The notes beneath the pieces were generated by a model that was given only the letters and a program-made list of their open reading frames with translations, searched no databases and had not been told where the DNA came from. Position numbers and translations under genes: made by a program. A stretch of 34,588 nt of DNA from Bacteroidales bacterium (GTDB lineage: Bacteria > Bacteroidota > Bacteroidia > Bacteroidales > F082): assembly GCA_017381865.1 (NCBI GenBank), contig JAFOBJ010000012.1, positions 1 to 34,588 on the forward strand, read 5' to 3'. Positions 5,241 to 24,953 of this stretch are shown here, one piece after another (the stretch's first letter is position 1; the number at the start of each line of letters is the position of its first letter).

Positions 5241-6968
5241 ATGAAAAAATCGCTGCTCATAATACTGTTTTCACTCATGACTTTATTTTCATATTGTCAA
5301 GACAACGAAGGCTGCGAATATCTCATCGTCACCCCTAACAACAGCGGCATCCAACAATGGGCCGACACACTGGCTAGATTCAGAAACGAACAAGGCATCT
5401 TGACTAAAGTCGTAAGCCTGAACGAAATCGGCGATAACTTTCCCGTAAATATCAAAAATTATTTTAACAACATTTACAAAAGCTGGAACCTCTCTCCTTC
5501 CGCCATCCTCCTTTTCGGAGATTATAATCTCGATGCCACAAAAGGAATAAGTTCCTTCTACCTCAATGATCATCCCGACAAACATTCTTATCTCACCGAC
5601 AACAAACTCGTCGACTTCAACAACGACAATCTTCCAGAAATCGTCATCGCTCGTATGCCAGCAGCGAATGCTCAACAAGCGGAAATTATGGTAAAGAAAA
5701 CTATGCGTTACGAACGTAATCCTTCCACGAATCCAGATTATTACGACAAGCCTCTCATGGTCATGAGTTTCGACGAATCGCGCTGGTTTCACCTCAGTTC
5801 TGAAGTCATTGCTGGTTATTTTGAAAAAATAAACAAACATCCTAATCGTCAAAGCACGATTTTTTACGGCAATCCTGATTCGATTTGGTCATCAGCAAAA
5901 AACACTGACGTCATAATTAATTATTTCGGTCCTGATGGATTGAATTACATTCCTTCCGACCTTCGTCATTTAAACAATTGGAACGGAAACAACAAAGATA
6001 TTTGTGAATTAATTAATAAAGGTACTTTCTTGGTTCAATATCGAGGTCACGGACAATATCAGGCTTGGACAAATCCTTATTTTTCAAATAAAGAAGTAAA
6101 TAATTTAAGCAATGAAGATTTGACTTTCGTAATGTCAACGAATTGCAGGACTGGCAATTTCCGTTACGGAGAAGGCAACGACGACTGTTTTGCAGAACAT
6201 TTCATGCGTACAGAAAACGGCTGCGTCGCCATAATCGCAGCTTCTGAAACATCGTATTCTTTCGTCAACGATGCTTACGTCTGGGGAGTCTACGATTATC
6301 TTTGGAACGACTTCATGCCTGATTATGGCGAAAACAACACAAATTTCAAATATCCAGCTTTCGCTAATTCTTACGGAAAGCATTTTCTTAAACAATCATC
6401 TTGGCCTGAATTTGAATTCAATAAAAATATAACTTACAATCTCTTTCATTATTTCGGCGACGCTTTCTTACAATTAAACACCGAAATGCCTAAAGAAATA
6501 AATATCAATTATCCAAAAGAAATTACAAGCGACGAGACTTCCATTAATATAAAAAGAGATAAAGACACAAAATTAGCTCTGTCTGTAAATGGAAAAATTA
6601 TCGCCGTTTCAACTGACAACGACAGCATTATAAATATAAATCCGCAAAAAGGAGGCAGTACTATCAAAGTCGTGGCAACAAAACAAGACCATTATCGTCA
6701 TGAAGGATTTATCGAAGTGAAAAGCATCTTGAATAATGACGACTTATTTATATATCCAAATCCTGCGAAAGACTTTTTATTTGTCGAAAGTAAAGGAATA
6801 AAAAAGATTGAAGTCTACAATAGTTTAGGACAAAAGTTAATGGAAATTAACAATAATGCATCAAACGAAAAATTAAGAATTGATTGCAGCACATTACAAA
6901 AAGGACTCTTTCATCTTCAGATTATTTATGAAGACAAAAGAGTCGGCAAATCTTTTGTAAGACTTTGA
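5241..6968 (+). CDS. Gingipain-like C25 cysteine peptidase with type IX sorting domain
   Basis: A 575-residue secreted protein. The signal peptide ends near 'FSYCQ' (residue ~20). Residues ~27-400 match the peptidase C25 fold: 'YLIVTPNNSG', 'AILLFGDYN', 'LPEIVIARMPAANAQQAEIM', then the catalytic pair, His270 in 'VQYRGHGQY' and Cys302 in 'MSTNCRTGNF'. Residues ~498-575 are a type A sorting domain ('IYPNPAKDFLFVESKG' to 'VGKSFVRL'), so it should leave the cell through the type IX system. The neighbouring porV and porU genes are on the opposite strand; PorU is a relative specialised as the sortase. Substrate specificity cannot be told. A heptamer array starts at its stop codon. Confidence 0.88.
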   Translation: MKKSLLIILFSLMTLFSYCQDNEGCEYLIVTPNNSGIQQWADTLARFRNEQGILTKVVSLNEIGDNFPVNIKNYFNNIYKSWNLSPSAILLFGDYNLDATKGISSFYLNDHPDKHSYLTDNKLVDFNNDNLPEIVIARMPAANAQQAEIMVKKTMRYERNPSTNPDYYDKPLMVMSFDESRWFHLSSEVIAGYFEKINKHPNRQSTIFYGNPDSIWSSAKNTDVIINYFGPDGLNYIPSDLRHLNNWNGNNKDICELINKGTFLVQYRGHGQYQAWTNPYFSNKEVNNLSNEDLTFVMSTNCRTGNFRYGEGNDDCFAEHFMRTENGCVAIIAASETSYSFVNDAYVWGVYDYLWNDFMPDYGENNTNFKYPAFANSYGKHFLKQSSWPEFEFNKNITYNLFHYFGDAFLQLNTEMPKEININYPKEITSDETSINIKRDKDTKLALSVNGKIIAVSTDNDSIININPQKGGSTIKVVATKQDHYRHEGFIEVKSILNNDDLFIYPNPAKDFLFVESKGIKKIEVYNSLGQKLMEINNNASNEKLRIDCSTLQKGLFHLQIIYEDKRVGKSFVRL

Positions 6969-6990
6969 ACCATTGACTGTTGACTATTGA
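6966..6990 (+). repeat. Stop-phased heptamer array after the C25 gene
   Basis: The gene's stop TGA (6966) is followed by TGA at 6974, 6981 and 6988, in units CCATTGA, CTGTTGA, CTATTGA. The three TGAs lie in three different frames. Confidence 0.75.
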
Positions 6991-7014
6991 AAGACGCCAC
7001 AGGAGTGACGTCTC
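6991..7014. repeat. Hairpin repeat of the 'GACGTCAC/GTGGCGTC' family
   Basis: AGACGCCAC pairs with GTGACGTCT with one G-T pair. Read on the other strand it is the same hairpin that occurs twice in tandem at 23928-23984, with one loop base changed. Confidence 0.65.
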
Positions 7015-7056
7015 TACAACTCCTAACTCTGACCGTTGACCATTCTATCATTCCAT

Positions 7057-7096
7057 AAAAAAACTCCGAGCATCAGATGATACCCGGAGTTTTTTT
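7057..7096. terminator. Bidirectional terminator between the convergent C25 and porV genes
   Basis: AAAAAAACTCCG...CGGAGTTTTTTT forms a stem with an A-tract before it and a T-tract after it. It can end transcription in both directions and sits between the two convergent genes. Confidence 0.75.
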
Positions 7097-7110
7097 CAAT
7101 TATATCGGAA

Positions 7111-8355
7111 TCAATTAACTGATTCTAATTTTGTTTTGTTTCCCCATTTATCGAGGTTGAATGTCAAGCTGAAACGAAGAGTTCCTTCCAATGGATTTGT
7201 TCCTGATGTTGCGCTGTTATTAACTGGCACCAAGTAAGATACGTCGATATTAAACACGTTATAACGTAATCCAGCACCGAATGTCATATAACGACGATTA
7301 CCTTTCATTTTTGCTTCATGGAAGAAACCTGTTCTTACTGTGAATGTTTGGTTGTACCAATATTCTGCGCCAACGCCTAATGTAAATTCTTTAATTTCTT
7401 CGCTGAATCCGCCTGGAGCGTCATAGAATGATTGGATTAAACCTTGAATTGGACCAACGTTATCATCTTTGCCAGCAGCGATGACTGGTTCACCATTGTC
7501 ATAGATAAGCGCACCTGTTATTGAATCCTTTGCATAAACTGGAGGTGTTGGAACTAACAATTTGTTGAAATCAATTGAGAATGCCAATGAGTTATAATCA
7601 TCGATATCGAGTTTCAAAGTTGGACCAAAACGCAAGTTTGTAGGAATAAAATCTTTGTCTAAGTTTGCGTCATTGTAATTCATTTTTGAACCGATATTAT
7701 TGATTGACACACCCCATGAGAAGTTTGCATCCATTGTATTAAACCAATAAACATCTCTTGTATAGTAAACAGCGACATCAGCTGCAACAGAAAGAGCTGG
7801 TTTTGAATAATCTTTTACGCCTTGTGTCAAGTTAGAATAGATGAGACGACCTGCTACGGCACCTGAGATATATTTACCTAACTTACGAGAATAAGCGACA
7901 TCGATTGCCCATTCATTTGGAGAATATGTTCCTAAATCATAATTATCATCATCTGTAAATGTAATGTCACCGAGGCTGAAATAACGTAATGTTGCAGCAA
8001 CAGTTGATTTAGGGCTTACGCGTTTTGAAATGCCTAAGTAAGCGATATTCATATCTGTGACCAATTCTCTGAGCCAAGGACTATAAGCCAAACCGACTGA
8101 AAAATCATCTTGAATGAATGCGTATTTTGCAGGGTTCCAATGCATTGAGTAAACATCTGGAGATGTTGAGACGCCTACATCACCCATAGCTGAAGATCTG
8201 GCATCTGGAGCAATCATCATAAAAGGAACAGCTGTAGAAATCACGTTATAGTCCAAATTCTGTCCTACTACTCCATCAATATCAACTTGTGCTTTAACGC
8301 CATAACCTGCAAAAAGCATCACAAACAATAAGGTAAAAATCTTAATTCTTTTCAT
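7111..8355 (-). CDS. porV: Type IX secretion outer membrane protein PorV (LptO/PG27 family)
   Basis: 414 residues with a signal peptide ending 'GYGVKAQ'. The N-terminal block 'STAVPFMMIAPDARSSAMGD', then 'VGVSTSPDVYSMHWNPAKYA', is the PorV family hallmark. The rest alternates in the beta-barrel manner and ends in a strand ('LRFSLTFNLDKWGNKTK'). PorV is an outer-membrane barrel of the FadL superfamily. It carries sorting-domain cargo from the translocon to the PorU sortase. The gene lies directly downstream of porU, as in other Bacteroidota, but the 94-base gap contains its own -7 box. Confidence 0.92.
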   Translation of the reverse strand: MKRIKIFTLLFVMLFAGYGVKAQVDIDGVVGQNLDYNVISTAVPFMMIAPDARSSAMGDVGVSTSPDVYSMHWNPAKYAFIQDDFSVGLAYSPWLRELVTDMNIAYLGISKRVSPKSTVAATLRYFSLGDITFTDDDNYDLGTYSPNEWAIDVAYSRKLGKYISGAVAGRLIYSNLTQGVKDYSKPALSVAADVAVYYTRDVYWFNTMDANFSWGVSINNIGSKMNYNDANLDKDFIPTNLRFGPTLKLDIDDYNSLAFSIDFNKLLVPTPPVYAKDSITGALIYDNGEPVIAAGKDDNVGPIQGLIQSFYDAPGGFSEEIKEFTLGVGAEYWYNQTFTVRTGFFHEAKMKGNRRYMTFGAGLRYNVFNIDVSYLVPVNNSATSGTNPLEGTLRFSLTFNLDKWGNKTKLESVN

Positions 8356-8437
8356 ATTCTTAAAAATTATTTTTCAATTAACGTACTAAAAAAATTATTA
8401 TTGTACTTTTTTTTAAAATTTTATAGAAAAATCTCTG

Positions 8438-8445
8438 CAAATATA
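8438..8445 (-). promoter_or_regulatory. -7 box of porV
   Basis: TATATTTG on the minus strand lies just beyond the porU stop codon at 8450. It predicts a leader of roughly 78 bases before the porV ATG, so porV can be transcribed separately from porU. Confidence 0.45.
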
Positions 8446-8449
8446 ATAA

Positions 8450-11400
8450 TTATTCAATTATTAATTTAGAATATCCTGATGTTTCTTCACTTTGTGAATT
8501 TTTAATTGTCACATTATAAACATAAACGCCAGATTTCAAAGGCGTTCCCCCATCAGAGCGTCCATCCCATTTTATAGGTTCTATTCTTGCAGTCGTTCCG
8601 TAACGATGTTCTGTTATTGTCTTAACCAATTGTCCTACAACATTATAAATCTTTATAACGACATCTATCTGATTATCTTTCTGATTATGTTCAAAGGTAA
8701 AATTAGTGCTACCATTCATAGGATTAGGATAGTTAGTTATGTTTTCCATATAGATAACCTTACCTTTTACAACATCAAAACGTATAGTCGCTGTGCTTGA
8801 ATTATTGTGAATATCCCAGACTTTAAATGTCAACGTATGTTCTCCTTCATTCAAGCCATAAAACTTATACGACAGCAAACCCGATTCATCTTTAGAAAGC
8901 GGTGCTTCATAGAACTGATTGAGAGTATAAACTTTGTTCGTTGCCCCTGAAAGAGTTGCAGTAATATCATGGCCAATGCCTGCTCCAGAAGTATTGACGC
9001 CATTTTCATCTTTAATATATGCCAAAAGAAGCGGATTCTCATTTGTCATGGAGCCATCGACAAATCTTTCATCATCAATATACAATTTAATTTCAGGTCC
9101 AAGATTATCAGTATCAGCAGCTTCATTCAATCCTCCCACTATAATATTAGAATATGCGCCATGTGCGTCACAATCTTCACTATATGCATACAAGCTTATC
9201 AAGCCTTCGCCATAGCTGTAATTGATATCTTTCGGCAAAGTAAAATCGGCAGAAAACATTCCATCTTTCACTTCAGCCTTACCTGTATATATAACACTGT
9301 TTCTCAACTTGAAAGAAATCACATTTGTTTCGTTGCCATGAGTATTATAAGTCACATCTTTATCATATACATTGATATGCAAGACGCCATTAAAATCAGA
9401 CAGATGAGTTCCAAACATATCGTTAACCACACCTTTTATGTTAACATTTTGCAATGCTCTCAATGTATCTGCTTGATTTGGCAAAGTATCATTTTGAATC
9501 ACATCATGATTATTTATTGATGTTAATTCTATTATATTTTCCGGATAATTAAGTCGTAGCGCAGGATCGCCGAAGTAGACATAAACCTTCGAATTCTCGT
9601 CACCCACTTGTTTTGCATGGACAAAGACATCACCCATCGTAATATATTTTCCACCTTCAACATCGAAGAGATGTTCATACAACAATTTCATCAATTTAAT
9701 ACTATTCGATGCGTATGTAACTCTCGCCGTTGTCATCATTGCGATAGCACCTCCATGATGATTAAGGAAGACATATTCACCTGCGGAAGTCCTTGTATGG
9801 TCATCAAAGCGACTAAATTCGCATGAAGCTGTTATCATAAGATGAAGTTTCGGAGAATTCTGCCAAGAGAAGATGTCCTCGTTTGTCAATATTCTTTCTG
9901 CAGCCCAGCCCACTTCACCAGCATGACCTATATAATTAATTATAGAAGCACCAAGTTCTACTCGGTTAGTAATAGCAGCATTACATTCAGGGGAACGCTG
10001 TCCGCTTGAAGTAGCGATTTGAGGATATGCATCGAGATAAATTTTGTCAATATCAACATCTTCACCGCCGTTGTTCCTTATTATATTTTCCAACTGTTCC
10101 GCATGGCTAGCATAATATGTATCATCATCATCTGCAACGAAAGTAATATTCTTGCGCCACTGACCTGCGCTTTCCTTTGTTATTGATATGTATTGCTCAA
10201 TTTTATCAATCATAGCTGAAGCATCTTCCTGCGTTGCCACCGGCATTCTTCCAATAGCCAAATCTATAACAGAAGTGTTATTCATAATGCCCTCATTATC
10301 ATCTAAACAGACAAAATAATCATCCGACACCACGCATGCTGAAGAACATGATGTTTTAGACTCATACGAAGGAATAAAACAGACTTGTCCGCTTTTATTT
10401 TTAAAATCGTACGAAGCATCACCGAAAAGCAAGACATATCTCAATCTCTTATTAGATTTTTTGTAAAGCATTCTGATATAATCTCTTATCGCAGTGATGT
10501 CCTGAGTTCCACATGAAAACTCATTATAAATCTGCTGCGGAGTCACGATTTCTATTTTTAAATCATCGATTCGAGAATGTATTTCTTTAAGACGTAAAGA
10601 TTGAGAATAAAAATCAGGATGTGTAATTATCAGATAATCGAAATCATATTTGGAATGAAGATTCTGATTAGCTATTTTTGAAACAAAGTTTACCTTATTA
10701 TAATAGTTTCCGTCAAAAGCAATGAATTCGTTTTGCTGCGAACCTTTTGTCTTAAAATAAGCCTTATTGGAAGAAAATTCAAGTTCAAGATTCTTTGGCT
10801 CTGTTGGTTCTGTTACATCCCAGACTTGCAAAGATTTATTAACATTACCTATTTCATATTTATATATTTTCTCTTTACTGAAACAATCTGGATTTCTGAA
10901 AAGCATCATTTTTTCGGTAAACTTCAGTTCACGCCAAGCATTGATGCCGATATAATCAAGCCAAGCCGTTGATGTAGATGTAGTTCTTGAATATGAAAGT
11001 TCGATAATAATCTGATCCTTATCGGAGTTAAACTTCACATTACCAGTATTTATCATATTGGCAAACAGGCCATCTGATGCGTTTGTTGAAGAAACCAATT
11101 TGTATATCATGCTTCCGTTCGCTTTGTAATTAAATTCAGATCTTGAGAAATTTCTTGAAGCGACTTCCGAATAGAGATTGCATTTCTTTTCCTTTATAAG
11201 ATTAGGAAAGACGAAAGAATAAGAACGAGACAATATCGCATCGAATTTATCACCATACCATGTCGCGCCCATATTGTTTAGATTGTAAGTATCATCTTCA
11301 ACAAGTTGATAATCAAGAAATGAATCAACTATCACATCATGATTTTCAGCTATCGACTCTGCATTTTCTATTCTTTTTCCTTCACCAAGATCTGTAGTCA

Positions 11401-12238
11401 AGAAAACGTAAGAATAATCGGAATACGGATTGGTTACTTTTTCATAAATTCCATTAACATTTTTCAATGTCACAGGACCTCTTCCATAAAACACAATGTA
11501 GTCGTCTAAATCAAAAGAACCATCGTTTTCTCCACTGACAAAAATTGGAATCTCCACCAAATCGTCATGGCGTTTTTCATTGTTTATCACGGGCAATATT
11601 CCGCCCCCATTGTGATACAATCTGATATTTTTAGGATTTATTGAAGCGACTGGCACACCCATCGATGAAAGTTCCGAATAAGTTATCTTATACATTCCCG
11701 TTGATGACAGCGACATCTTATACCAGTTTCCAGAAGCAAGTACAGAATTATCTGTAGAATAATAACTTCTGTTTCTTTTTACACCTTCAATAGAATAATG
11801 TACATCGCACGAAACAAGTCGCACCGCAACATTTTCGACTTTAAAAAACGGATTTATTTCAAAGCACAAACTATGATTGTCGCGAGAAGATTTTATGTAG
11901 TAATTATATAATGGTATAGTATCAATTATTTCAGATTCATTCAAAAAAGAAAGCTCATTTTCAGGTATTTCTTCATAAGTTAAATTATCAAGATAAGCAT
12001 CTATTTCAACTTCATCAGAATAAATTGGGAAAGTCGTTCTATAAAAGGGATTTTTTTCATCAAAATAATTGTCATAAACAGCATTTTCAAAAGAAACACA
12101 TTTAACGGCATTGCCATTTACAAATATATTTTCCAGTCCATTCCATTTAATTTCAACGGAAAACGAATCTTTATTCTGAGCATTTAAAGCAATTACATTA
12201 AAGCAAAGAACAAACAAAAAAACATACGGCTTTATCAT
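8450..12238 (-). CDS. porU: Type IX secretion system sortase PorU (C25 family)
   Basis: 1262 residues from the chosen start. The frame extends upstream to a TTG at 12292, but a -7 box (12281-12288) overlaps that start. The ATG at 12238 gives a clean signal peptide, 'MIKPYVFLFVLCFNVIALNA'; the ATG at 12265 is the alternative. The C25 domain begins near 'YDFDYLIITHPDFYSQS' and includes 'YVLLFGDASYDF', 'IDLAIGRMPVATQEDA', catalytic His772 in 'NYIGHAGEVGW' and Cys806 in 'TASCEFSRFD'. The C-terminus is a FlgD-like Ig domain ('NYPNPMNGSTNFTFEHN' to 'GYSKLIIE') as in other PorU proteins. PorU cleaves the C-terminal signal of cargo and attaches the cargo to A-LPS at the outer membrane. It pairs with porV immediately downstream. 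Confidence 0.93.
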   Translation of the reverse strand: MIKPYVFLFVLCFNVIALNAQNKDSFSVEIKWNGLENIFVNGNAVKCVSFENAVYDNYFDEKNPFYRTTFPIYSDEVEIDAYLDNLTYEEIPENELSFLNESEIIDTIPLYNYYIKSSRDNHSLCFEINPFFKVENVAVRLVSCDVHYSIEGVKRNRSYYSTDNSVLASGNWYKMSLSSTGMYKITYSELSSMGVPVASINPKNIRLYHNGGGILPVINNEKRHDDLVEIPIFVSGENDGSFDLDDYIVFYGRGPVTLKNVNGIYEKVTNPYSDYSYVFLTTDLGEGKRIENAESIAENHDVIVDSFLDYQLVEDDTYNLNNMGATWYGDKFDAILSRSYSFVFPNLIKEKKCNLYSEVASRNFSRSEFNYKANGSMIYKLVSSTNASDGLFANMINTGNVKFNSDKDQIIIELSYSRTTSTSTAWLDYIGINAWRELKFTEKMMLFRNPDCFSKEKIYKYEIGNVNKSLQVWDVTEPTEPKNLELEFSSNKAYFKTKGSQQNEFIAFDGNYYNKVNFVSKIANQNLHSKYDFDYLIITHPDFYSQSLRLKEIHSRIDDLKIEIVTPQQIYNEFSCGTQDITAIRDYIRMLYKKSNKRLRYVLLFGDASYDFKNKSGQVCFIPSYESKTSCSSACVVSDDYFVCLDDNEGIMNNTSVIDLAIGRMPVATQEDASAMIDKIEQYISITKESAGQWRKNITFVADDDDTYYASHAEQLENIIRNNGGEDVDIDKIYLDAYPQIATSSGQRSPECNAAITNRVELGASIINYIGHAGEVGWAAERILTNEDIFSWQNSPKLHLMITASCEFSRFDDHTRTSAGEYVFLNHHGGAIAMMTTARVTYASNSIKLMKLLYEHLFDVEGGKYITMGDVFVHAKQVGDENSKVYVYFGDPALRLNYPENIIELTSINNHDVIQNDTLPNQADTLRALQNVNIKGVVNDMFGTHLSDFNGVLHINVYDKDVTYNTHGNETNVISFKLRNSVIYTGKAEVKDGMFSADFTLPKDINYSYGEGLISLYAYSEDCDAHGAYSNIIVGGLNEAADTDNLGPEIKLYIDDERFVDGSMTNENPLLLAYIKDENGVNTSGAGIGHDITATLSGATNKVYTLNQFYEAPLSKDESGLLSYKFYGLNEGEHTLTFKVWDIHNNSSTATIRFDVVKGKVIYMENITNYPNPMNGSTNFTFEHNQKDNQIDVVIKIYNVVGQLVKTITEHRYGTTARIEPIKWDGRSDGGTPLKSGVYVYNVTIKNSQSEETSGYSKLIIE

Positions 12239-12280
12239 ACAATTATTTATATCTATTTTTCCCATTTTAAAAGCATTTTG

Positions 12281-12288
12281 CAAATATA
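12281..12288 (-). promoter_or_regulatory. -7 box of porU
   Basis: TATATTTG on the minus strand puts the transcript start near 12275, between the TTG and the downstream ATGs. It therefore decides against the longest reading frame. No clear TTG -33 box is seen. Confidence 0.45.
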
Positions 12289-12376
12289 CCAAAAGCCTAA
12301 CGTTTCTACTAATTATTTATTATTAAAAACATCACAAAAAAAATACATTTATGCTTTTTATTTAAAAAAAAATCCG

Positions 12377-12384
12377 TATAATTG
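12377..12384 (+). promoter_or_regulatory. Possible -7 box of gldJ
   Basis: TATAATTG differs from TAnnTTTG by one base. It would give a leader of about 80 bases before the gldJ ATG at 12468. Confidence 0.35.
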
Positions 12385-12467
12385 CAAACTGAAATTAGTC
12401 CGCTGTTTTCAGTGGGCACAATATTACGTTTTTTTTAGAGTTAGATAGATAATTAAAAATTAAAATA

Positions 12468-13991: not shown

Positions 13992-14011
13992 GTTATTCAC
14001 TTTATATAATG

Positions 14012-16399: not shown

Positions 16400-16450
16400 T
16401 ATTTTAGAAAATATTAAGTTAATAATAAAAAGTTAAAAAATAAAAAAGAC

Positions 16451-17134
16451 ATGAATTTATTAAGCATTCTCATTCAAGCTACAAACGTAGCTGCTGCACC
16501 AGAAGCAGAAGAAATCAGATTATCATTATTGGAACTGGCCAAAGAAGGCGGCTGGATTATGGTTGTACTCGCAATTTTCTCAATAATAGCGGTTTATATT
16601 TTCTGCGAAAGATTTATAACCATAAACAAAGCATCAAAAAGAGATGACAACTTCATGAATTTAATTCGTAACTTCATGATTGAAGGCAAGTTAGAAGAAG
16701 CTAAAGATTTATGCAAACAAACAGATACTTCAATATCAAGAATGATTGAAAAAGGTATTTCTCGTATCGGAAAACCACTTAATGACATTCAAACAGCTAT
16801 TGAAAACGTCGGTAATGTGGAAGTCAGCAAACTTGAAAAAGGCGTCGCTTTAATCGGTATGATTTCAGGTGCCGCTCCTATGCTCGGTTTCCTTGGTACT
16901 GTAACCGGTATGATTCGCGCTTTCTACGATATGTCAATGGCTGGAAATAATATTGATATTGAATTACTTTCAGCAGGTATTTACGAAGCTATGGTTACAA
17001 CAGTAGGCGGTTTGTTCGTCGGTATCCTCGCTTATATTTTCTATAATATCATTGTCGCTAAAATCGACAAAGTCGTTAACATACTCGAAAGCAAGAGTAT
17101 AGAATTCATGGACGTATTAAATGAACCAGTTTGA
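16451..17134 (+). CDS. exbB: MotA/TolQ/ExbB proton channel family protein
   Basis: 227 residues. A first hydrophobic helix ('GGWIMVVLAIFSIIAVYIF', residues ~34-52) precedes a long cytoplasmic helical loop. Two further membrane helices follow: 'GVALIGMISGAAPMLGFLGT', with the family motif continuing 'VTGMIRAF', and 'VGGLFVGILAYIFYNIIV'. Together with the next two genes it makes the inner-membrane proton-driven complex that energises TonB-dependent outer-membrane transport. TolQ is the alternative name, but the TonB-like gene behind exbD favours ExbB. Heptamer repeats fill the 95-base gap before exbD. Confidence 0.9.
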   Translation: MNLLSILIQATNVAAAPEAEEIRLSLLELAKEGGWIMVVLAIFSIIAVYIFCERFITINKASKRDDNFMNLIRNFMIEGKLEEAKDLCKQTDTSISRMIEKGISRIGKPLNDIQTAIENVGNVEVSKLEKGVALIGMISGAAPMLGFLGTVTGMIRAFYDMSMAGNNIDIELLSAGIYEAMVTTVGGLFVGILAYIFYNIIVAKIDKVVNILESKSIEFMDVLNEPV

Positions 17135-17137
17135 TTC

Positions 17138-17221
17138 AATTCATAATTCATAATGCATAATTCATAATTTAGGATGGAGACAGGAAACAACTCCTAACTC
17201 CTAATTCATTACTCCTAATTA
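17138..17221 (+). repeat. Heptamer arrays between exbB and exbD
   Basis: Four AATTCAT/AATGCAT units (17138-17165) begin three bases after the exbB stop. A second set of ACTCCTA units (17190-17217, with one ATTCATT variant) follows. Both carry TAA at seven-base spacing. The array lies within an operon without an obvious terminator. Confidence 0.85.
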
Positions 17222-17229
17222 AAAAGTAT

Positions 17230-17643: not shown

Positions 17644-18491
17644 CAAATAAAAACAAACATAAGTTATTTGGAATTGTTATGACTATTGCATTTCATGCAG
17701 TAGCACTCGTTCTGCTTCTCAATTTATGTTTCATAACTCCTCTCCCACTTCCTGGCGAAGCTGGCGTTGAAGTCAATTTAGGAATGTATGCTCAAGGTTT
17801 AGGAAAAACCAGCGAAAACGTTGCTAGCCAACCAGTTCCTGAAACGCCTAAAGTTGTAGAACAACAAGAAGCACATGCAGAAGACGTCGAGGAAATTTTA
17901 AGTGAAGACGAAGAAGTTCCTAGCATCGAAGAAGTTCCTGAAGAGATTGAAGAAATAGAAGAAAAGCCAGAGGAAATAGAAGAACCTAAGGAAGTAGAAA
18001 AAATTGAAGAGCTTGAAGAAATCGAAGAAGTAGAGGAACCAATAGAAGAAAAGCCTGAAGAAAAACCTGTTGTTAATCAAAGAGCTATGTTTCAAGCTCC
18101 AAAGAACAACACAGAAAGTTCATCAGAAGGAAACACGCAACCAGGAGGCATTCAAGGCTCGCCTAATGGTTTGAAAGACATCGACAGATACGAAGGCAAC
18201 GGCGGAAGTGGCGGCGGACCAGCCTACGACTTGGGCGGACGTGGCGCAAAAAGCATCGCCTCACCTAGTCGCGAAAATGTTAGCGAAGAAGGTAAAGTCG
18301 TCGTCGACATCTGGGTTGACAAAGAAGGTCGTGTGCAAAGAACTGAAATTGGAAAAGGAACGACAATAACAAATTCTGAAATGCGTGCATTAGCACTGCA
18401 AGCCGCTAAAAATTCCATTTTCAATAAAGATGAAAATGCAGCCGAATTACAAAGAGGTACCATAACATACACTTTTATTATCAGACAATAA
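17640..18491 (+). CDS. TonB-like energy transducer
   Basis: 283 residues: a short cytoplasmic start, one membrane anchor ('IVMTIAFHAVALVLLLNLCF', ~residues 11-30), then a long periplasmic spacer. The spacer (~residues 80-143) is unusually acidic, built from EEI, EEK and EEP units rather than the Pro-Lys repeats of classical TonB. After a Gly-rich hinge ('GGSGGGPAYDLGGRGA') comes a C-terminal TonB-type domain ('VVVDIWVDKEGRVQRTEIGK' to 'ITYTFIIRQ'). It overlaps exbD and would carry the ExbB/ExbD proton-motive output to outer-membrane receptors, or act as a TolA-like protein. Family level is clear, exact partner unknown. Confidence 0.8.
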   Translation: MTNKNKHKLFGIVMTIAFHAVALVLLLNLCFITPLPLPGEAGVEVNLGMYAQGLGKTSENVASQPVPETPKVVEQQEAHAEDVEEILSEDEEVPSIEEVPEEIEEIEEKPEEIEEPKEVEKIEELEEIEEVEEPIEEKPEEKPVVNQRAMFQAPKNNTESSSEGNTQPGGIQGSPNGLKDIDRYEGNGGSGGGPAYDLGGRGAKSIASPSRENVSEEGKVVVDIWVDKEGRVQRTEIGKGTTITNSEMRALALQAAKNSIFNKDENAAELQRGTITYTFIIRQ

Positions 18492-18503
18492 AAACAAAAC
18501 GAC

Positions 18504-19790
18504 ATGAATTATAATGAAACTTTAAATTGGATGTTCAACAAACTACCTATGTATCAACGCATTGGTGCATCCGCTTACAAGGCAGACCTCAACACAACTA
18601 TAGAAATAATCAACTACCTCGACAATCCACAAGATAGTTTCAAATCAATACATATAGCTGGCACCAATGGTAAAGGCAGCACTTCTCATTCTTTGGCGTC
18701 TGTATTTCAAGAAGCTGGCTACAAAACAGGACTCTACACTTCCCCACATCTCCGCGATTTTAGAGAACGTATCCGCATCAACGGAGAAATGATTCCTGAA
18801 AATGACGTCGTCGATTTTATCGAAAAACATAAAAACAAACTCGAAGAACTCGAATTATCTTTCTTCGAAATGACTGTGGCAATGGCATTCGATTATTTCA
18901 GAAAAGAAAAAGTCGACATCGCTATCATCGAAGTCGGAATGGGCGGACGCCTCGACTCCACAAATGTCATCAATCCAGAATTGTGTGTTATAACAAACAT
19001 ATCTTTAGACCATGTTAAATTCTTAGGCGAAAACGAAGAACAAATCGCTAAAGAAAAAGCTGGCATCATAAAACCTAAAACTCCTGTTGTTATCGGTGAA
19101 ACTCAAGAAGATAGCAAAAATGTATTTATAAATACAGCTAAAGAAAAAGATAGTAAAATCATATTTGCCGACCAAATAATGGATTGCAGAAAAGATAACA
19201 CATACTCTATCGAATATCAAAAATTTGACATATACAAAAACAACGAACTCTATCTTAAAGACCTGAAATATCCATTATTAGGCAATTATCAGAAGAAAAA
19301 CCTCGCCACCGTAATTTGTGCGTTAGATATTCTAAAAGAATCATTCAATATAAATAACACACACATTATCAATGGTTTAAATAATGTAATAAAAAATACA
19401 AGCCTGATGGGACGCTGGCAAGTCATAAACAGAAATCCTTTAGCAATAGCCGATACCGGACATAACGTTGCCGGCATCAATGAAGTGAACCGTCAATTAG
19501 CAGAAACTAAATACAACAAATTACATTTTGTTTTAAGCGTCGTAAATGATAAAGACATTGATGGAATTCTAAACTTATTACCAAAAGATGCAGAATATTA
19601 CTTCTGCAAAGCTGACATACCTAGAGGATTAAGCGTCAATATTTTAGCAGAAAAAGCAATTAAATGCGGACTCAATGGAAAAATCTATGATTCCGTACGT
19701 CTCGCTTATTCAACAGCTTTGGAAAATGCAAAAGAAGGCGATTTGGTATTTGTTGGAGGAAGCAACTTTACAGTAGCTGAAGTTGTTTAA
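18504..19790 (+). CDS. folC: Bifunctional folylpolyglutamate synthase/dihydrofolate synthase
   Basis: 428 residues of the Mur-ligase superfamily. Seen are 'MYQRIGASAYKADLNTTIEI' at the N-terminus, the P-loop 'IAGTNGKGSTSHSLAS' (~residue 52), 'GLYTSPHLRDFRERIRINGE', 'IIEVGMGGRLDSTNVI', 'TNISLDHVKFLGENEEQIAK' and the C-terminal 'IADTGHNVAGINEV'. FolC joins glutamate to dihydropteroate and extends the polyglutamate tail of folates in the cytoplasm. It starts 12 bases after the TonB-like gene and probably ends the same operon. Confidence 0.95.
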   Translation: MNYNETLNWMFNKLPMYQRIGASAYKADLNTTIEIINYLDNPQDSFKSIHIAGTNGKGSTSHSLASVFQEAGYKTGLYTSPHLRDFRERIRINGEMIPENDVVDFIEKHKNKLEELELSFFEMTVAMAFDYFRKEKVDIAIIEVGMGGRLDSTNVINPELCVITNISLDHVKFLGENEEQIAKEKAGIIKPKTPVVIGETQEDSKNVFINTAKEKDSKIIFADQIMDCRKDNTYSIEYQKFDIYKNNELYLKDLKYPLLGNYQKKNLATVICALDILKESFNINNTHIINGLNNVIKNTSLMGRWQVINRNPLAIADTGHNVAGINEVNRQLAETKYNKLHFVLSVVNDKDIDGILNLLPKDAEYYFCKADIPRGLSVNILAEKAIKCGLNGKIYDSVRLAYSTALENAKEGDLVFVGGSNFTVAEVV

Positions 19791-19830
19791 GAATTAAGGA
19801 TTTCAGACATAAAAATTTAGAAACAAATTT

Positions 19831-19838
19831 TATTTTTG
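19831..19838 (+). promoter_or_regulatory. -7 box of tamL
   Basis: TATTTTTG matches TAnnTTTG and would start the transcript about 19843-19846, close to the non-ATG start codon of tamL. The mRNA may therefore be nearly leaderless. Confidence 0.4.
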
Positions 19839-19854
19839 TAAAAAATTGGAGATT

Positions 19855-22173
19855 GTGCGCAGAGTTTTTATAAATATCATTTTATTATGCCTCATGATTA
19901 CGACTTTCGTGTCATGCTCCATCAGGAAGCATATACCAGAAGGCGAAATGATATTGAAAAACAATGTTGTAGAAATTCATTCACAAGATGTAGACTTTAC
20001 CAAGTCTGACATATCTTCATACATCGTACAATCTTCTAACCCTAAATTTCTGGGATTCATGCCGCTAACATGGGTCTATTATAAAACAGAAAAAAACAAA
20101 GATAAAAAACTGATTGGCTGGATCAATAAGAAAATAGGCGAAAAACCTGTATATTTCAATAATGAAATGAAAGAAAACTCCATCGTTCAAATCAGTAAGT
20201 ATTTGAATGATGTCGGTTATTTTAATTCTGGAATATCTACAGAAATAAAAAACAGAAAAGGCATTTCAAAAGTATATTACGGAATATATCCTGCAAAACC
20301 TTATATCGTTGATAGTATATCATATAAAATAACTGACAGCACTATCTATCACTATGTCAAAGACATAGAAGAAACTTTACCTGTAAAAAAAGGTGAAATC
20401 TACAATGTATTCAATCTAGATGACGAACGCGATCTGATAACAGAACATCTTAAAAACAACGGCTATTTCTATTTTACAAAAGATTATATCTTCATGGAAG
20501 TAGACACCAACTTCAATGATAAAAAAGCTAATATCAATATAAGAATAGACAATGTCATTGATCCTTTAACACAAAAAAATATAAATCATAAACAATACAA
20601 AATCAACAATATATATATTTATCCCAAAGGAGTTTTAACTAATAACGTAAAAGCTGACACTTCAAAATATACATTTGAACTAAACAGAAATTTGGGAGAC
20701 GAGACTTATTATTTTATTTACAATGAAAAACCTAAAATAAGATTCAAGACTTTCGACAATATAATCCAAATACAAACAGGAAGCCTTTACAACTCCCATC
20801 AAGTTACGCAAACTTACAAAGCTCTTAACAACTTAAAACTTTACAACCACAACAATATTGACTTTGAACCTATTGAAAATGATAACGATAGCATCAATCT
20901 TCTAAATTGTAATATCATACTAAACAGATCCAAGGTAAACTATTATAGTCTACAATTAGAAGGCACTAATTCCAGTGGTGATTTAGGCATACTTGGCAGT
21001 TTTACCTATCGTAACAAAAACATTTTCAGAGGCTCAGAAATTTTCAATATAAGTCTCAGAGCTGGAACTCAGGCTCAGTCAGTACTTGTTGATAATGAAG
21101 GAAATACAAGCCTTTTCAATACTAAAGAATTCGGTATTGACGCAAGTATTTTCTTCCCTAAATTTTTAAGCCCAATAAAATTAAAAAACTTCGCTAAAGA
21201 ATATCAGCCAAGAACAACATTAACAGTAGGTTACAGCCTACAAACGCGACCTATTTACACCAGACAAATATCTATTCTCTCATTCGGTTATAACTGGATG
21301 AAAAACAATTATGAACAGCATATTTTAACACCTTTAACTTTCAATAGTGTTAAAGTGGATCCAACACCATCTTTTGAAGAAATCTTAGAAAAAGAAACAA
21401 ACCAACGTATCAAAGACCAATATACAAGCCACTTGATTTTCGGTTTAGATTATACTTATATATTTAATAACCAAAATGTTAGATTTATAAAAGACTTCTT
21501 TTATTTTAAAGCCAACGTTCAATCAAGCGGTAATTTATTATCACTTTTCAACAACACTTCTGCCATACAGACTGTCGACAACTATCATGAAATATATGGT
21601 ATCAGATATGCTCAATACATTCGTTTTGCCTTCGATTTCAGATATTTCAAATATGTATATGGAGAAAATCAGATTGCAACGCGATTCATGTTGGGCGCTG
21701 GCATTCCTTACGGCAACTCTAATGACATGCCTTTTGAAAAAAGTTTCTACGCAGGAGGCTCTAATGGCATGAGAGGCTGGCAGTTCCGCGAATTAGGTCC
21801 TGGAACATTCAGCAATCCTGAAAACCTTAATATCGAACGTATCGGCGACATACAACTAGAATTCAATTTAGAATATCGTTTCCCTATTCATAGTTTCATC
21901 AAAGGAGCTATTTTCACAGATATCGGCAACATCTGGACTATGAAAGAAAGCGAAACTTTCGTTGGCGGTCAATTTAAATTTGATACTTTCTATAAGCAAC
22001 TTGCTGCAGACGTCGGCGTCGGAATACGCTTCGACTTTTCTTTCTTCCTCTTCCGTCTCGATGCTGCAATCCCTATTGTAAACCCTGCTTATCCTGAAGG
22101 CGAACGCTGGAGAATCAACAAGTTACAATTCAAAGATTTTGTTCTCAACTTCGGTATCGGTTATCCATTCTAA
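19855..22173 (+). CDS. tamL: TamL-type BamA-family outer membrane lipoprotein
   Basis: About 772 residues. No ATG is available. GTG at 19855 gives a textbook lipoprotein signal, 'MRRVFINIILLCLMITTFVS', followed by the lipidated Cys; TTG at 19846 is the alternative. After 'SIRKHIPEGEMILKNN', a TamL hallmark, the N-terminal half looks like POTRA domains. The C-terminal half is a BamA/Omp85 barrel with the conserved loop motif in 'GGSNGMRGWQFRELGPG', ending in a strand with terminal Phe ('FVLNFGIGYPF'). In Bacteroidota TamL is the lipidated BamA relative that works with TamB in envelope assembly. No tamB is in the window. The helicase gene follows after 11 bases. Confidence 0.85.
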   Translation: MRRVFINIILLCLMITTFVSCSIRKHIPEGEMILKNNVVEIHSQDVDFTKSDISSYIVQSSNPKFLGFMPLTWVYYKTEKNKDKKLIGWINKKIGEKPVYFNNEMKENSIVQISKYLNDVGYFNSGISTEIKNRKGISKVYYGIYPAKPYIVDSISYKITDSTIYHYVKDIEETLPVKKGEIYNVFNLDDERDLITEHLKNNGYFYFTKDYIFMEVDTNFNDKKANINIRIDNVIDPLTQKNINHKQYKINNIYIYPKGVLTNNVKADTSKYTFELNRNLGDETYYFIYNEKPKIRFKTFDNIIQIQTGSLYNSHQVTQTYKALNNLKLYNHNNIDFEPIENDNDSINLLNCNIILNRSKVNYYSLQLEGTNSSGDLGILGSFTYRNKNIFRGSEIFNISLRAGTQAQSVLVDNEGNTSLFNTKEFGIDASIFFPKFLSPIKLKNFAKEYQPRTTLTVGYSLQTRPIYTRQISILSFGYNWMKNNYEQHILTPLTFNSVKVDPTPSFEEILEKETNQRIKDQYTSHLIFGLDYTYIFNNQNVRFIKDFFYFKANVQSSGNLLSLFNNTSAIQTVDNYHEIYGIRYAQYIRFAFDFRYFKYVYGENQIATRFMLGAGIPYGNSNDMPFEKSFYAGGSNGMRGWQFRELGPGTFSNPENLNIERIGDIQLEFNLEYRFPIHSFIKGAIFTDIGNIWTMKESETFVGGQFKFDTFYKQLAADVGVGIRFDFSFFLFRLDAAIPIVNPAYPEGERWRINKLQFKDFVLNFGIGYPF

Positions 22174-22184
22174 TCTTAATTATT

Positions 22185-23711
22185 ATGGATAGAAATACAT
22201 TATTTAACATTCTTTTAAGGAATTTTGGCTTAACACCTACCGAAGGTCAGGCCAAAGTTTTATATCATCTAGCGGCATTTATATTAACAGAAAAAGAAAG
22301 ACCTGTCTATCTTTTAAGAGGTTACGCTGGTACCGGAAAAACTACTTTAGTCTCGACTTTAGTAAAAACATTGCCAAGTATCGGCATGCGATACCAGCTG
22401 CTAGCACCTACAGGAAGAGCCGCAAAAGTCATAAGCAATTACACTGGAAAACCAGCATCCACTTTACATAGAAAACTATATCGTTTTCAAGCCGTTGCAA
22501 ATGGAGAATTGCGTATGACAAGAGCTGAAAACAAAGCAAAAAACACCATCTTCATCGTCGATGAAAGTTCTATGATTTCTGACCAAGGCGACGGCTATTC
22601 CTGGTCGCGTTCGCTTCTCGACGACTTGATAGAATACGTCTTCAGCGGCAGCTGCTGCAAACTTCTGCTCATAGGAGATTCGGCTCAGCTGCCGCCCGTC
22701 GGACTCGAAATCTCACCCGCAATGGACTTCAACATCTTGAAAAACAGCTTCGACCTTACTCTCGCTACATTCGAAATGAAAGAAGTCATGCGTCAAGCCT
22801 TGTATTCGGGAATATTGTATAATGCTACTGAAATCAGGAATAAAATTGCAATGGGAAATGAGCAATGGGAAATGAGCGAATCCGATATGTATCAATTGCC
22901 TTTATTAGACATTAAAAACTTTGACGATATTGTTAAAATCGATCCGATGTCGTTTGAGGAATTGCTGTGGGAAAGTTTTGGCGACAAAAGAAACAACAAC
23001 GACGCCGTCGTAATCTGCCGTTCCAATAAAAGAGCCAATATGTTCAACCAAGCCATCAGAAGCAGAGTGCTGCAAGAAGAAGGCGAACTCTCCACCGGCG
23101 ACAAACTCATGATTGTGAAAAATAATTATTATTGGACAAGTCAACAAGACATCAAGACGACAAGACAACAAGAAGTTCAACAATCAAATGCTCATAGCTC
23201 ACAGCTCATAGCTCAAGGCCAAATAAGCTTCCTCGCCAACGGCGACATGATTGAAATCACTAGAATCAACAAATTCGAGGAAATGTACGGATTCCACTTC
23301 GCCGATGTCGACATTCAACTTACAGATTATGAAGATGCGCCTAATCTTTCTGTAAAGATAATAATGGAAACATTATACAGCGACTCCCCTGCCCTCACAA
23401 ATGAAGAAGCTAAACGACTATATCAAGCCGTTGAAGAAGATTATATGGATATTCCGCGAGCTTCTGACCGCCGTAAAGCTATGAAAGAAAATCCATATTT
23501 CAATGCCTTACAAGTTAAGTTCGGCTACGCATTGACGTGTCACAAGACACAAGGCGGACAATGGAACAACGTCTTCGTGGAAGCACCATATCTTCCAGAT
23601 GAAACCACTTTAGAATTATCAGACCTCCGTTGGCTTTACACCGCCATCACCCGCGCCAAAGAAAAGGTATATCTGGTTAATTTCAAGGATGAATGGTTTA
23701 TTAGAAATTGA
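22185..23711 (+). CDS. RecD-like/PIF1-type superfamily 1 DNA helicase with repeat-derived insertions
   Basis: 508 residues. Motif I is 'RGYAGTGKTTLVSTLV' (~residue 47), motif Ia 'LAPTGRAAKV', motif II 'FIVDESSMI', motif III 'LLIGDSAQLPPVG', motif IV region 'VICRSNKRANMFN', and the C-terminal UvrD_C_2 part has 'ALTCHKTQGGQWNNVFVEAP' and 'YTAITRAKEKVYLVNF'. It is a stand-alone RecD-like ATPase, probably 5'-3', common in Bacteroidota. Its role in repair or recombination is inferred. Two stretches look foreign to the fold and come from tandem repeats: residues ~222-231 (22849-22876) and ~318-345 (23136-23217). All helicase motifs are intact, so the gene is probably functional. It is likely co-transcribed with tamL. 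Confidence 0.88.
   Translation: MDRNTLFNILLRNFGLTPTEGQAKVLYHLAAFILTEKERPVYLLRGYAGTGKTTLVSTLVKTLPSIGMRYQLLAPTGRAAKVISNYTGKPASTLHRKLYRFQAVANGELRMTRAENKAKNTIFIVDESSMISDQGDGYSWSRSLLDDLIEYVFSGSCCKLLLIGDSAQLPPVGLEISPAMDFNILKNSFDLTLATFEMKEVMRQALYSGILYNATEIRNKIAMGNEQWEMSESDMYQLPLLDIKNFDDIVKIDPMSFEELLWESFGDKRNNNDAVVICRSNKRANMFNQAIRSRVLQEEGELSTGDKLMIVKNNYYWTSQQDIKTTRQQEVQQSNAHSSQLIAQGQISFLANGDMIEITRINKFEEMYGFHFADVDIQLTDYEDAPNLSVKIIMETLYSDSPALTNEEAKRLYQAVEEDYMDIPRASDRRKAMKENPYFNALQVKFGYALTCHKTQGGQWNNVFVEAPYLPDETTLELSDLRWLYTAITRAKEKVYLVNFKDEWFIRN
22849..22876 (+). repeat. Heptamer pair repeat inside the helicase gene
   Basis: CAATGGG and AAATGAG alternate twice (period 14, two heptamers). They encode the region around 'MGNEQWEMSE'. 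The frame used avoids the TGA in each AAATGAG unit. Confidence 0.8.
23136..23217 (+). repeat. Octamer and heptamer arrays inside the helicase gene
   Basis: Five ACAAGACA-type octamers (23136-23175), a 14-base link and four GCTCATA-type heptamers (23190-23217) add the Q/S/T-rich stretch 'SQQDIKTTRQQEVQQSN' plus 'AHSSQLIAQG'. It lies between the strands 'MIVKNNYYW' and 'ISFLANGDMIEI'. The GCTCATA words are of the same kind as the intergenic arrays. Confidence 0.85.
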
Positions 23712-23735
23712 GAAACTGAAGATTTGAAGAACTGA
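23709..23735 (+). repeat. Stop-phased octamer array after the helicase gene
   Basis: From the stop codon TGA at 23709, further TGAs occur exactly eight bases apart at 23717, 23725 and 23733. Together they cover all three frames. Confidence 0.7.
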
Positions 23736-23795
23736 GGAAGTAATTTTTCTCCCTAATACCTTTATACCATCAAATCCCCAAATCCTCAATTCCTT

Positions 23796-23881
23796 CTTTT
23801 GGGCGTTCCGCTACGCGTCGGGCTTTCCGCTATATCTTTTTCCGCTGCGCTCCAAAAGGATGCCGCTCCAATCCCTAACGC
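23796..23881 (+). repeat. Left arm of ~86-base inverted repeat
   Basis: The arm contains TGGGCGTTCCG, then GTCGGGCTTTCCGCTATATC, then a variable piece, then AAAGGATGCCGCTCCAATCC and CTAACGC. Its inverted partner is at 24738-24823. The long blocks are identical, and differences cluster in two short segments that look like hairpin loops. Confidence 0.85.
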
Positions 23882-23927
23882 AACGTGTAAAAAAAGGAAT
23901 CGTTCCTTTTACAGCACCGCTCCCGTA

Positions 23928-23984
23928 GAGACGTCACCCCTGTGGCGTCTCAAAAAATGTCACCCCTGTGGCGTCTCAAAAAAC
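23928..23984. repeat. Two tandem 26-base hairpin repeats
   Basis: The unit GTCACCCCTGTGGCGTCTC plus an A-run occurs at 23933-23958 and 23959-23984. With the preceding GAGAC the first copy forms the stem GAGACGTCAC/GTGGCGTCTC. A further copy in opposite orientation is at 6991-7014. A related pair of arms (AGACG...CGTCT) lies at about 24007-24057. Confidence 0.75.
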
Positions 23985-24103
23985 AAATACGAATCCTACA
24001 AAAAATGAGACGTGTCAATGTTTCTTTATTTTTTGCAAGATACATTAACGCGTCTCTACATTGGATGCGGCAAGCCACGTCACCACAAAAAATTCAAAAT
24101 CTC

Positions 24104-24143
24104 AGAAACTCAGAAACTCAGCAACTTAGTGACTCGGTGTCTT
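24104..24143 (+). repeat. Octamer array
   Basis: Units AGAAACTC, AGAAACTC, AGCAACTT, AGTGACTC and GGTGTCTT repeat with period 8 and decay to the right. The right end resembles, in inverse orientation, the CACCGAG words of the direct repeats at 1.0 and 5.1 kb. Confidence 0.65.
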
Positions 24144-24150
24144 TAAAAAA

Positions 24151-24350
24151 GTCACATAGTGACGACAGTTTCCAGGCAGGCGGTGGAGTGCGAAGCACGG
24201 AACCCCTGCATTCATGACCATGATGATATAAAAAGTGCTGAAGGCACGACAGAGGCGTTTTTCTGTCGCACCTTCAGCGCTTTGATTTTCTTTGCATCTT
24301 ATTTTGCATGGATTCCGCACTGCGTGCTTCATCACCTGCCTGGGAACTGC
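24151..24350. repeat. Palindromic dispersed element, full copy 2
   Basis: The outer arms 24166-24210 and 24305-24349 are imperfect inverse complements of about 45 bases. The central hairpin has arms 24234-24253 and 24262-24281. Because of this symmetry both strands encode similar peptides (one strand 'ARNPC' and 'SAEGTTE', the other 'VRNPC' and 'SAEGATE'), which explains the overlapping open frames here. The first ~140 bases match 1087-1222. Confidence 0.8.
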
Positions 24351-24504
24351 CGCTCCTGACGGAGCTGTTTTAAAATTCCTCAATTTCTCCTCGCGTCATT
24401 CATTCCGTTGCGCTTGCTTCGTTCGTCCCTCACTCGCTTGCTTCACTTCATTCATTGTCTCGGCTTTAGCTTAGTGCCAAAAGGATGGGATGTAATTGTA
24501 GTTC

Positions 24505-24627
24505 CTAAAGGACAAGGCGGAGACCGCGGTAGTTGTACCTGCTGTCTGGGTGGTTGTAGTAACGAATCGACACACGGCAGTCCCTTGCGATGCTGTACCA
24601 GCTACCGCCACGATTCACGCGGTCAGA
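24505..24627 (-). pseudogene. C-terminal fragment of an FGE-sulfatase-domain protein, resembling a DGR variable region
   Basis: The minus strand reads 'SDRVNRGGSW', then 'ARDCRVSIR', 'NHPDSRYNY' and 'RGLRLVL', then a stop. This is the C-terminal core of formylglycine-generating-enzyme-like proteins. There is no start; the frame closes at a TAA (24672) and the expected ~200 upstream residues are replaced by CGCAGAGA octamers. Between the Trp codon (24600) and the Arg codon at 24528, thirteen variable-site codons are TAC, AGC, ATC, CAC, GAC or AAC. All end in C and can be derived from AAC by changing A only. The last 22 bases before the stop contain no A. Both traits are typical of variable regions of diversity-generating retroelements. 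The fragment is not a copy of gldJ, whose C-terminus differs. Confidence 0.75.
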
Positions 24628-24737
24628 GCCAATTAACACTTTGCGTTTCTCTGCGTCTCTGCGAGAAATTTAAAAAATCACTTCAACGAACTCAGCAACC
24701 TTGCTCAAAGCTCGCCTCTCATTACTCTTAGCCCCAA

Positions 24738-24823
24738 GCGTTAGGGATTGGAGCGGCATCCTTTGCGAGTGTGCGAGCAAAGATATAGCGGAAAGCCCGA
24801 CGGCTTTGCCGGAACGCCCAAAG
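24738..24823 (-). repeat. Right arm of ~86-base inverted repeat
   Basis: Inverse complement of the left arm at 23796-23881. Here the first variable piece is CGGCAAAGCCG (stem CGGC/GCCG) and the second is TTTGC...GCAAA, each still able to pair although the bases differ from the left arm. Confidence 0.85.
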
Positions 24824-24860
24824 AAAGTGTAGAATTGAAAGTGTAAAGTGTATAGTCTGT

Positions 24861-24890
24861 TCTTAGCTCTTAGTCCTTAGTTCTTAGTTC
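24861..24890 (+). repeat. TCTTAGT heptamer array
   Basis: Four units, TCTTAGC, TCTTAGT, CCTTAGT and TCTTAGT, each with TAG. They are the same family as 5189-5216 and lie just beyond the eno terminator. Confidence 0.8.
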
Positions 24891-24920
24891 AAAAAAAAAC
24901 CGCCCATTACTGAGCGGCTT
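24891..24920 (-). terminator. Intrinsic terminator of eno
   Basis: On the minus strand CCGCTCA, a GTAA tetraloop and TGGGCGG form a 7-bp stem followed by nine T. It lies after the heptamer array that follows the eno stop codon. Confidence 0.85.
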
Positions 24921-24921
24921 A

Positions 24922-24950
24922 ATTATGAATTATGCATTATGAATTATGCA

Positions 24951-24953
<3 letters not shown>
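24922..24953 (-). repeat. Stop-phased heptamer array after eno
   Basis: In the eno reading direction the stop TAA is followed by TAA every seven bases for four further units (TAATGCA/TAATTCA). The stop codon itself is the first unit. Confidence 0.85.

Follow-up and report, generated by a model that had tools for sequence, protein, structure and literature searches.

A window of 34,588 nucleotides (nt) on contig JAFOBJ010000012.1 of assembly GCA_017381865.1 (Bacteroidales bacterium, F082) contains short tandem arrays of 7- or 8-nt units, some of which stand at the 3' ends of genes and carry evenly spaced stop triplets. According to Pfam, the window codes for proteins of the type IX secretion system (T9SS) type. 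A first-pass annotation of this DNA had proposed that the arrays begin at stop codons and repeat the stop in register, and that they are either seeded there by slippage or kept as frame-independent translation stops. We have followed up these proposals in the genome from which the window comes (G000) and in a second species of the same genus (G009), and we argue that the arrays are very probably dispersed cassettes with a preference for gene 3' ends.

Five gene ends and their surroundings

The genes and arrays are listed below; family A denotes the (T)AATTCAT / AATGCAT group, the largest unit group in the G000 sample.

24951..26225, minus strand: eno, enolase (Pfam Enolase_N and Enolase_C)
24921..24953, minus strand: family A cassette of 33 nt, its first TAA being the eno stop (24951-24953); read from the sequence, with none at the orthologous G009 end
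24891..24918, minus strand: terminator-like hairpin and T run behind the eno array; read from the sequence, with a similar one in the array-free G009
1326..4310, minus strand: surface protein with BspA-type leucine-rich repeats, InlB B-repeats and a T9SS sorting domain (Pfam)
1310..1328, minus strand: short family A array, its first TAA being the stop of the surface-protein gene 1326-4310 (sequence)
5241..6968, plus strand: C25 peptidase with a T9SS sorting domain (Pfam)
6966..6990, plus strand: short TGA array (0, 8, 15, 22) from the C25 peptidase stop onward (sequence)
22185..23711, plus strand: helicase with AAA_30, UvrD_C_2 and PIF1 matches (Pfam)
23709..23735, plus strand: degenerate octamer array from the helicase stop onward, TGA at 0, 8, 16, 24 (sequence)
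16451..17134, plus strand: exbB, MotA/TolQ/ExbB family (Pfam)
17138..17169, plus strand: family A cassette of 32 nt, out of register, 6 nt past the first base of the exbB stop; a related array at the same place in G009
17189..17218, plus strand: AACTCCT-type heptamer array in the gap behind exbB, before the gene that follows (Tandem Repeats Finder, TRF)
5157..5218, plus strand: arrays of an octamer (TGAGTCTA) and of a heptamer (AGTTCTT) preceding the C25 gene, away from any stop codon (TRF)
1416..1451, minus strand: octamer array of 4.5 units, 36 nt, forming an in-frame part of the surface protein's T9SS C-terminal sorting domain (TRF, Pfam)

The phased stops claimed for the five gene ends are present in the sequence exactly as described: TAA at 0, 7, 14, 21 and 28 for eno and at 0, 7 and 14 for the surface-protein gene, the TGA series given above for the helicase and C25 genes, and TGA followed by TAA at 12, 19, 26 and 33 for exbB. 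The further claim that the gene's own stop lies in or near register at four of the five ends holds for those four, the exbB array being out of register. The arrays of the surface-protein, C25 and helicase genes are short or degenerate, and eno alone in the window passed our tract cut-off with the stop inside the array. Within the helicase gene, three heptamer or octamer arrays are read in frame, at 22848-22877, 23136-23173 and 23190-23215 (amino acids 222-231, 318-330 and 336-344).

Abundance, size and placement of the arrays

G000 (2.12 Mb, 79% complete) was sampled over 570 kb, comprising the window and the first 20 kb or less of each of 40 random contigs, with 391 genes called; G009, whose enolase is 96% identical and whose aligned DNA is on average 78% identical to that of G000, was sampled over 580 kb, in stretches that are random except for three from contig C87. 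Genes were called with a home-made open reading frame (ORF) caller, checked partially via orthologs (87 ends). Contigs of two further species of the genus, G063 and G043, were chosen by hand, partly for family A matches, and are not a random sample. Tracts inherited in common by G000 and G009 were counted once in each genome. All offsets are counted from the first base of the stop codon, and arrays with a left edge at -2 to +9 are called stop-hugging. Position counts exclude tracts with a lag score below 12, which drops three of the five gene ends described above, and unit-count statistics use a cut-off of 10. In the position permutation each tract is re-placed randomly in its own gap, with a reach of 20 nt into the 3' end allowed.

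The G000 sample contains 136 lag-7 and 82 lag-8 tracts, against none of either in a local shuffle (a single run per period); lags 5, 6, 9-13 and 15 gave 0 to 10 tracts each, and lag 14, which corresponds to two heptamers, gave 92. Merging leaves 234 tracts in G000, of which 142 are intergenic. ORFs enclose 42, another 42 extend over a stop but no start, 6 over a start but no stop, and 2 over both. The tracts fall into 93 unit classes, many of which are mutual variants. Family A occurs 47 times in the sample, in 24 cases with a length of exactly 32 or 33 nt, and its units recur beside unrelated genes. Across the genus it is unevenly distributed: 6 of 60 genomes have it, each giving between 1 and 131 pattern matches, and the control pattern gave one match overall.

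The arrays have a preferred size. Among 223 non-coding tracts of period 7 from G000 and G009, 107 have four full units, 44 have three and 24 have five, and 86 are 31-33 nt long; among 128 of period 8, the corresponding unit counts are 50, 33 and 10. The length remainder is 3-5 nt in 144/223 tracts of period 7 and in 67/128 of period 8, as compared with 46% and 38% when arrays ending at random points were simulated from the units of the observed tracts themselves. Outside family A, 4.5 units is the commonest half-unit class for both periods, in G000 and G009 alike. In G043 four units occur in 22/45 tracts of period 7 and 2/7 of period 8; G063 has no clear preference for four in period 7 (7/19, with 9/19 for three) and has four units in 6/14 tracts of period 8. 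The size preference thus looks like one for unit count rather than for length in bases. None of the ten commonest units in the G000 sample contains GGG or CCC. The occurrence of one architecture (four units and about half of another) in many 7- and 8-nt families, with no G tracts, with unit variants mixed freely and with placement at gene 3' ends, is the basis for supposing that a single dedicated process, for instance templated repeat addition, builds or copies cassettes of fixed count and inserts them just behind stop codons. We regard this as improbable; if it were true, the four-unit preference of G-rich heptamers need not stem from quadruplexes.

Four family A cassettes (L009 14021, L011 2315, L025 10686 and L042 15109) have a common upstream flank, GCC(C/A)TAAAAC, which suggests that these four may belong to longer repeats that are themselves dispersed. 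A palindromic repeat, GAGACGCCACAGGGGTGACGTCTC with its variants, is also dispersed; copies occur in the window at 6992-7013 and 23928-23983 and in L028 at 10111-12350, and some of them adjoin heptamer cassettes (AATT then GTAGAGACG). Strict palindromic GAGACG..CGTCTC repeats number 38 in the 570 kb of G000 and 8 in the 580 kb of G009; they had been considered as a control for stop-hugging and were dropped as too few.

The proposal that arrays begin at stop codons is borne out by their positions in both species. Left edges peak at about -6 to +11 relative to the stop. Stop-hugging is seen for 37 of 159 tracts in G000 (permuted mean 14.7) and for 26 of 81 in G009 (7.5), values that none of 2000 permutations reached in either genome. 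At start codons we counted 4 tracts against 9.4 permuted in G000, and 8 against 4.1 in G009. Pooled over the two genomes, the concentration is present in family A (18/48 against 5.7) and in the other families (45/192 against 16.3), and the hand-picked samples gave 7/23 against 1.5 in G063 (0/2000 permutations) and 7/40 against 2.7 in G043 (26/2000). With gap lengths uncorrected, the tracts per gap in G000 are 21/49 for divergent, 111/257 for tandem and 28/46 for convergent gaps, and in G009 11/42, 55/288 and 15/36. Arrays were also considered as parts of terminators; a strict scan found terminators after 2/112 arrays and after 43/642 array-free stops, and this idea was rejected.

In tandem gaps, pooled as above, 49/166 tracts hug the stop against 15.4 expected, and the effect persists in those of at least 120 nt (30/116 against 5.5). 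Convergent gaps give 14/42 against 6.6, with a weaker signal in those of at least 120 nt (6/30 against 2.5; 34/1000 permutations reach the observed value). Such persistence in long tandem gaps and in convergent gaps would fit a cellular process that directs cassette insertion to gene 3' ends, perhaps to the untranslated part right after the stop, and an earlier study cited in PMC12306157 placed a significant share of Escherichia coli REP (repetitive extragenic palindromic) elements 1-20 nt from an ORF 3' end. On the other hand, PMC12306157 itself puts only 446/4,072 E. coli REPs at 15 nt or less from a stop, Y1 transposases do not track family A, RVT_1 has no match in G000, G043 and G063, and selection after random insertion would yield the same pattern. 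Targeting of this kind, which seems to us rather doubtful, would refine the explanation favoured below and does not exclude it.

Register, inheritance and origin

The claimed register proved not to be a property of its own. Among 57 tracts with a left edge at offset 0 or less, 41 have phased sense stops behind the gene stop, 35 of them in register; an array that contains the stop can hardly be otherwise, since the frame that enters it must end on one of its stops, and register is then forced. A further 90 tracts start 1-40 nt past the stop; 66 of these have phased sense stops, and 14 are in register, near the 10.1 that the count of stop phases in each unit predicts. Phased stops are as frequent on the antisense strand of the 90 tracts (64) as on the sense strand (66), and phased sense stops are absent from 21/58 tracts that start at +1 to +9. 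Arrays that do not contain the stop show no clear choice of register or strand. In 44 overlapping arrays the gene stop is the first phased stop 25 times, the second 12 times and the third 7 times, an excess over equal thirds that is expected if array edges peak near the stop.

Stop content is related to where the arrays are found. Arrays whose units have stops on both strands lie inside ORFs in 9/162 tracts, as compared with 56/192 for units with a stop-free strand (Fisher p = 3e-9, the tracts not being fully independent). Stops in all three frames within 30 nt occur at 45/68 array ends and 64/307 array-free ends in G000, and at 29/46 and 70/346 in G009, which would be in keeping with arrays being kept at gene ends by selection as fail-safe translation stops, as would the finding of arrays in both species at 10/87 orthologous ends against 4.4 expected. 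We consider this explanation highly improbable. The three-frame excess follows from the array sequence, which itself supplies the stops; the phased stops are equally common on the two strands; over a third of the arrays nearest to the stop, the 21/58 given above, lack sense-strand stops; about 80% of array-free ends (243/307 and 276/346) do without three-frame stops within 30 nt; and the presence of an array is discordant at 19 of the 29 ends that bear one in either species.

The last figure comes from a comparison of orthologous gene ends, as the first-pass annotation had suggested. Among 87 ends, an array is present in both species at 10, in G000 only at 9, in G009 only at 10 and in neither at 58. 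Most sites with arrays in both species carry the same family, as inheritance predicts. At the eno end of G009, an AT-rich spacer and a similar terminator follow the stop and there is no array; the C-terminus differs by one residue. At L020:11948-14134, a cassette and another repeat lie between the conserved stop and the terminator, which in G009 follows closely behind the stop. The arrays of the two species at the stop of L037:2-313 belong to different families, and at L041:9953-10432 G009 has an octamer array and G000 a degenerate TGACTGT-type repeat below the cut-off. With an array definition stricter than that used for the 87 ends, the C-terminus differs in 4/4 cases in which just one species has an array and this reaches into the gene; it is the same in 9/14 cases in which such an array abuts the stop, and in 45/58 ends without an array in either species, which serve as the baseline. 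An overlapping array thus supplies the stop itself, and with an abutting array the previous stop is usually retained. At the ends of L020 18269-19555 and L035 11975-13498 we observed a palindromic repeat at the stop in G000 and an octamer array instead in G009 (L107 and L085).

Seeding of the arrays at stop codons by replication slippage on local sequence, the other origin proposed earlier, would account for the peak of array edges around the stop and for the gene stop being the first phased stop in 25/44 overlapping arrays, and slippage on 7-nt units has been proposed before (Mrazek 2007, cited in PMC4679880). Nevertheless, the same unit families recur at unrelated loci, orthologous G009 stops have no array or one of another family, sizes have their mode at four units and a part, and register is near chance for arrays 1-40 nt away, so that we give slippage very little credence.

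By far the best explanation, in our opinion, is that the arrays are dispersed short-tandem-repeat cassettes, mostly non-coding, that favour gene 3' ends, and that the stop register is a by-product. The cassettes would consist of 7- or 8-nt units of many families, modally four full units and a part unit, and would be copied around the genome, to settle mainly in non-coding DNA and preferentially at gene 3' ends; we infer that the stop side is favoured, or best tolerated, since changes there cost least. Most units hold a stop triplet on one strand or both, and neither 7 nor 8 is a multiple of 3, so that a frame entering such an array in that direction ends on one of its stops within about three units. 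A cassette that lands in or against a gene end would accordingly either spare the existing stop or replace it by one that cannot but be in register. Stop content would then sort where cassettes survive, in keeping with the rarity of both-strand-stop cassettes inside ORFs.

Several observations weigh against this explanation. Promoter avoidance alone is insufficient, because the concentration is higher than gap length would permit and is seen in convergent gaps too, and some targeting or selection at 3' ends may contribute. G009 arrays are somewhat frequent at starts too (8 against 4.1). A cassette stands between stop and terminator at eno and L020:11948-14134, yet terminators are rarer after arrays than after array-free stops (2/112 against 43/642). 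The in-register count downstream of stops is slightly over expectation, and the share of first stops (25/44) exceeds a third. The excess of common arrays (10/87 against 4.4) is explained by inheritance, and retention would explain it equally well. With the DNA of the two species 78% identical, there are few clean empty sites, and neither enzyme considered below fits as the copying machinery. By eye, a possible 7-nt direct repeat, a candidate target-site duplication, was seen beside one insertion (G009, L092).

As to machinery, Y1 transposase matches occur in 42/60 genomes of the genus. This enzyme was rejected as the agent of spreading, as Y1_Tnp has no match in G043 and G056, two of the six family A carriers; the other four, G000, G009, G023 and G063, do have matches. 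The reverse transcriptase RVT_1 was likewise rejected, with one match in G009, two in G056, one in G023 and none in G000 (79% complete), G043 or G063; the last result weighs against the telomerase-like DRT10 (PMC12632851) as a source, although G000 is incomplete to that degree.

Named enolase loci were considered as further sources of arrays and set aside, since 63 of 80 have none. Enolase matches in the genus (L050, L053-L056, L059-L064, L066, L070 and L078) form groups at 96%, 71-78% and 64-66% identity to that of the window, grouping that suggests a possible replacement or transfer of eno within the genus. Among the named matches listed, the window enolase is closest to metagenome-assembled genomes of Muribaculaceae at 86%, with same-genus matches at 64 to 96%.

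Comparison with known repeat systems

The STRR repeats of filamentous cyanobacteria are short tandem 7-nt repeats, and thus resemble the arrays described here in unit length, and REPs are palindromes linked to RAYT transposases. Our arrays differ from the REP/RAYT system in being tandem and in having a distribution that is not matched by that of Y1 transposase genes. They are like the E. coli REP elements in being dispersed and short, with some within 15-20 nt of an ORF 3' end (PMC12306157).

A close parallel is found in the GGGAATC and GGGGA(C/T)T heptamers of Xanthomonas and Nostoc (Rehm et al. 2015, PMC4692102, which also mentions heptamers of Calothrix). That paper describes a clear four-unit preference and a strong bias to lie very near or to overlap the stop codon of the upstream ORF. 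The likeness extends to 7-nt units, a dispersed and mostly intergenic location, and variation of length and sequence between related species. Tandem 7-nt units are over-represented here as well (136 tracts against 0), but so are units of 8 nt (82 tracts); the four-unit preference is found in both periods (107/223 and 50/128 in G000 and G009), as is the closeness to stops (37/159 against 14.7 and 26/81 against 7.5). The arrays differ from the Rehm heptamers in that the commonest units have no quadruplex-capable G tracts, that there are many families, and that units of 8 nt occur beside those of 7. Nor do they prefer the sense strand behind ORFs (66 and 64 of 90, with phased stops as a proxy for strand), and they are not under-represented between divergent genes when counted per gap with gap lengths uncorrected.

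The TAACTGA direct repeats of Beggiatoaceae, Cyanobacteria and Bacteroidetes (MacGregor 2015, PMC4679880) are another parallel. The argument that such repeats place stops in all three frames is already in print there, and in the main genome of that study, sets of TAACTGA stand mostly just upstream of start codons. Our stop-carrying families likewise provide three-frame stops on one strand, and their overlaps end ORFs. In contrast to the TAACTGA repeats, stops are favoured here and starts not consistently (4 against 9.4 in G000, 8 against 4.1 in G009). The unit also differs; TAACTGA is not among the G000 units listed, and no search aimed at it was made.

In a literature search that left most subscription journals outside, we found, among the papers listed, no title or abstract on the stop-codon register as such, the nearest being PMC4679880 and PMC4692102. 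Between them, these two papers cover most of the finding. What is added here is an explicit test of register, the comparison of C-termini, the sorting of arrays by stop content, the treatment of many families at once, and a comparable rule of size for 7-mers and 8-mers that are poor in G. Stop-hugging four-unit heptamer repeats are thereby extended to a Bacteroidales-like lineage, to G-poor units and to a period of 8, from which it would seem that quadruplexes do not, in general, account for the preference for four units. The view of phased stops as a selected safety device, attractive but unsupported, is replaced by a testable account, in which stop content sorts the survival of cassettes.

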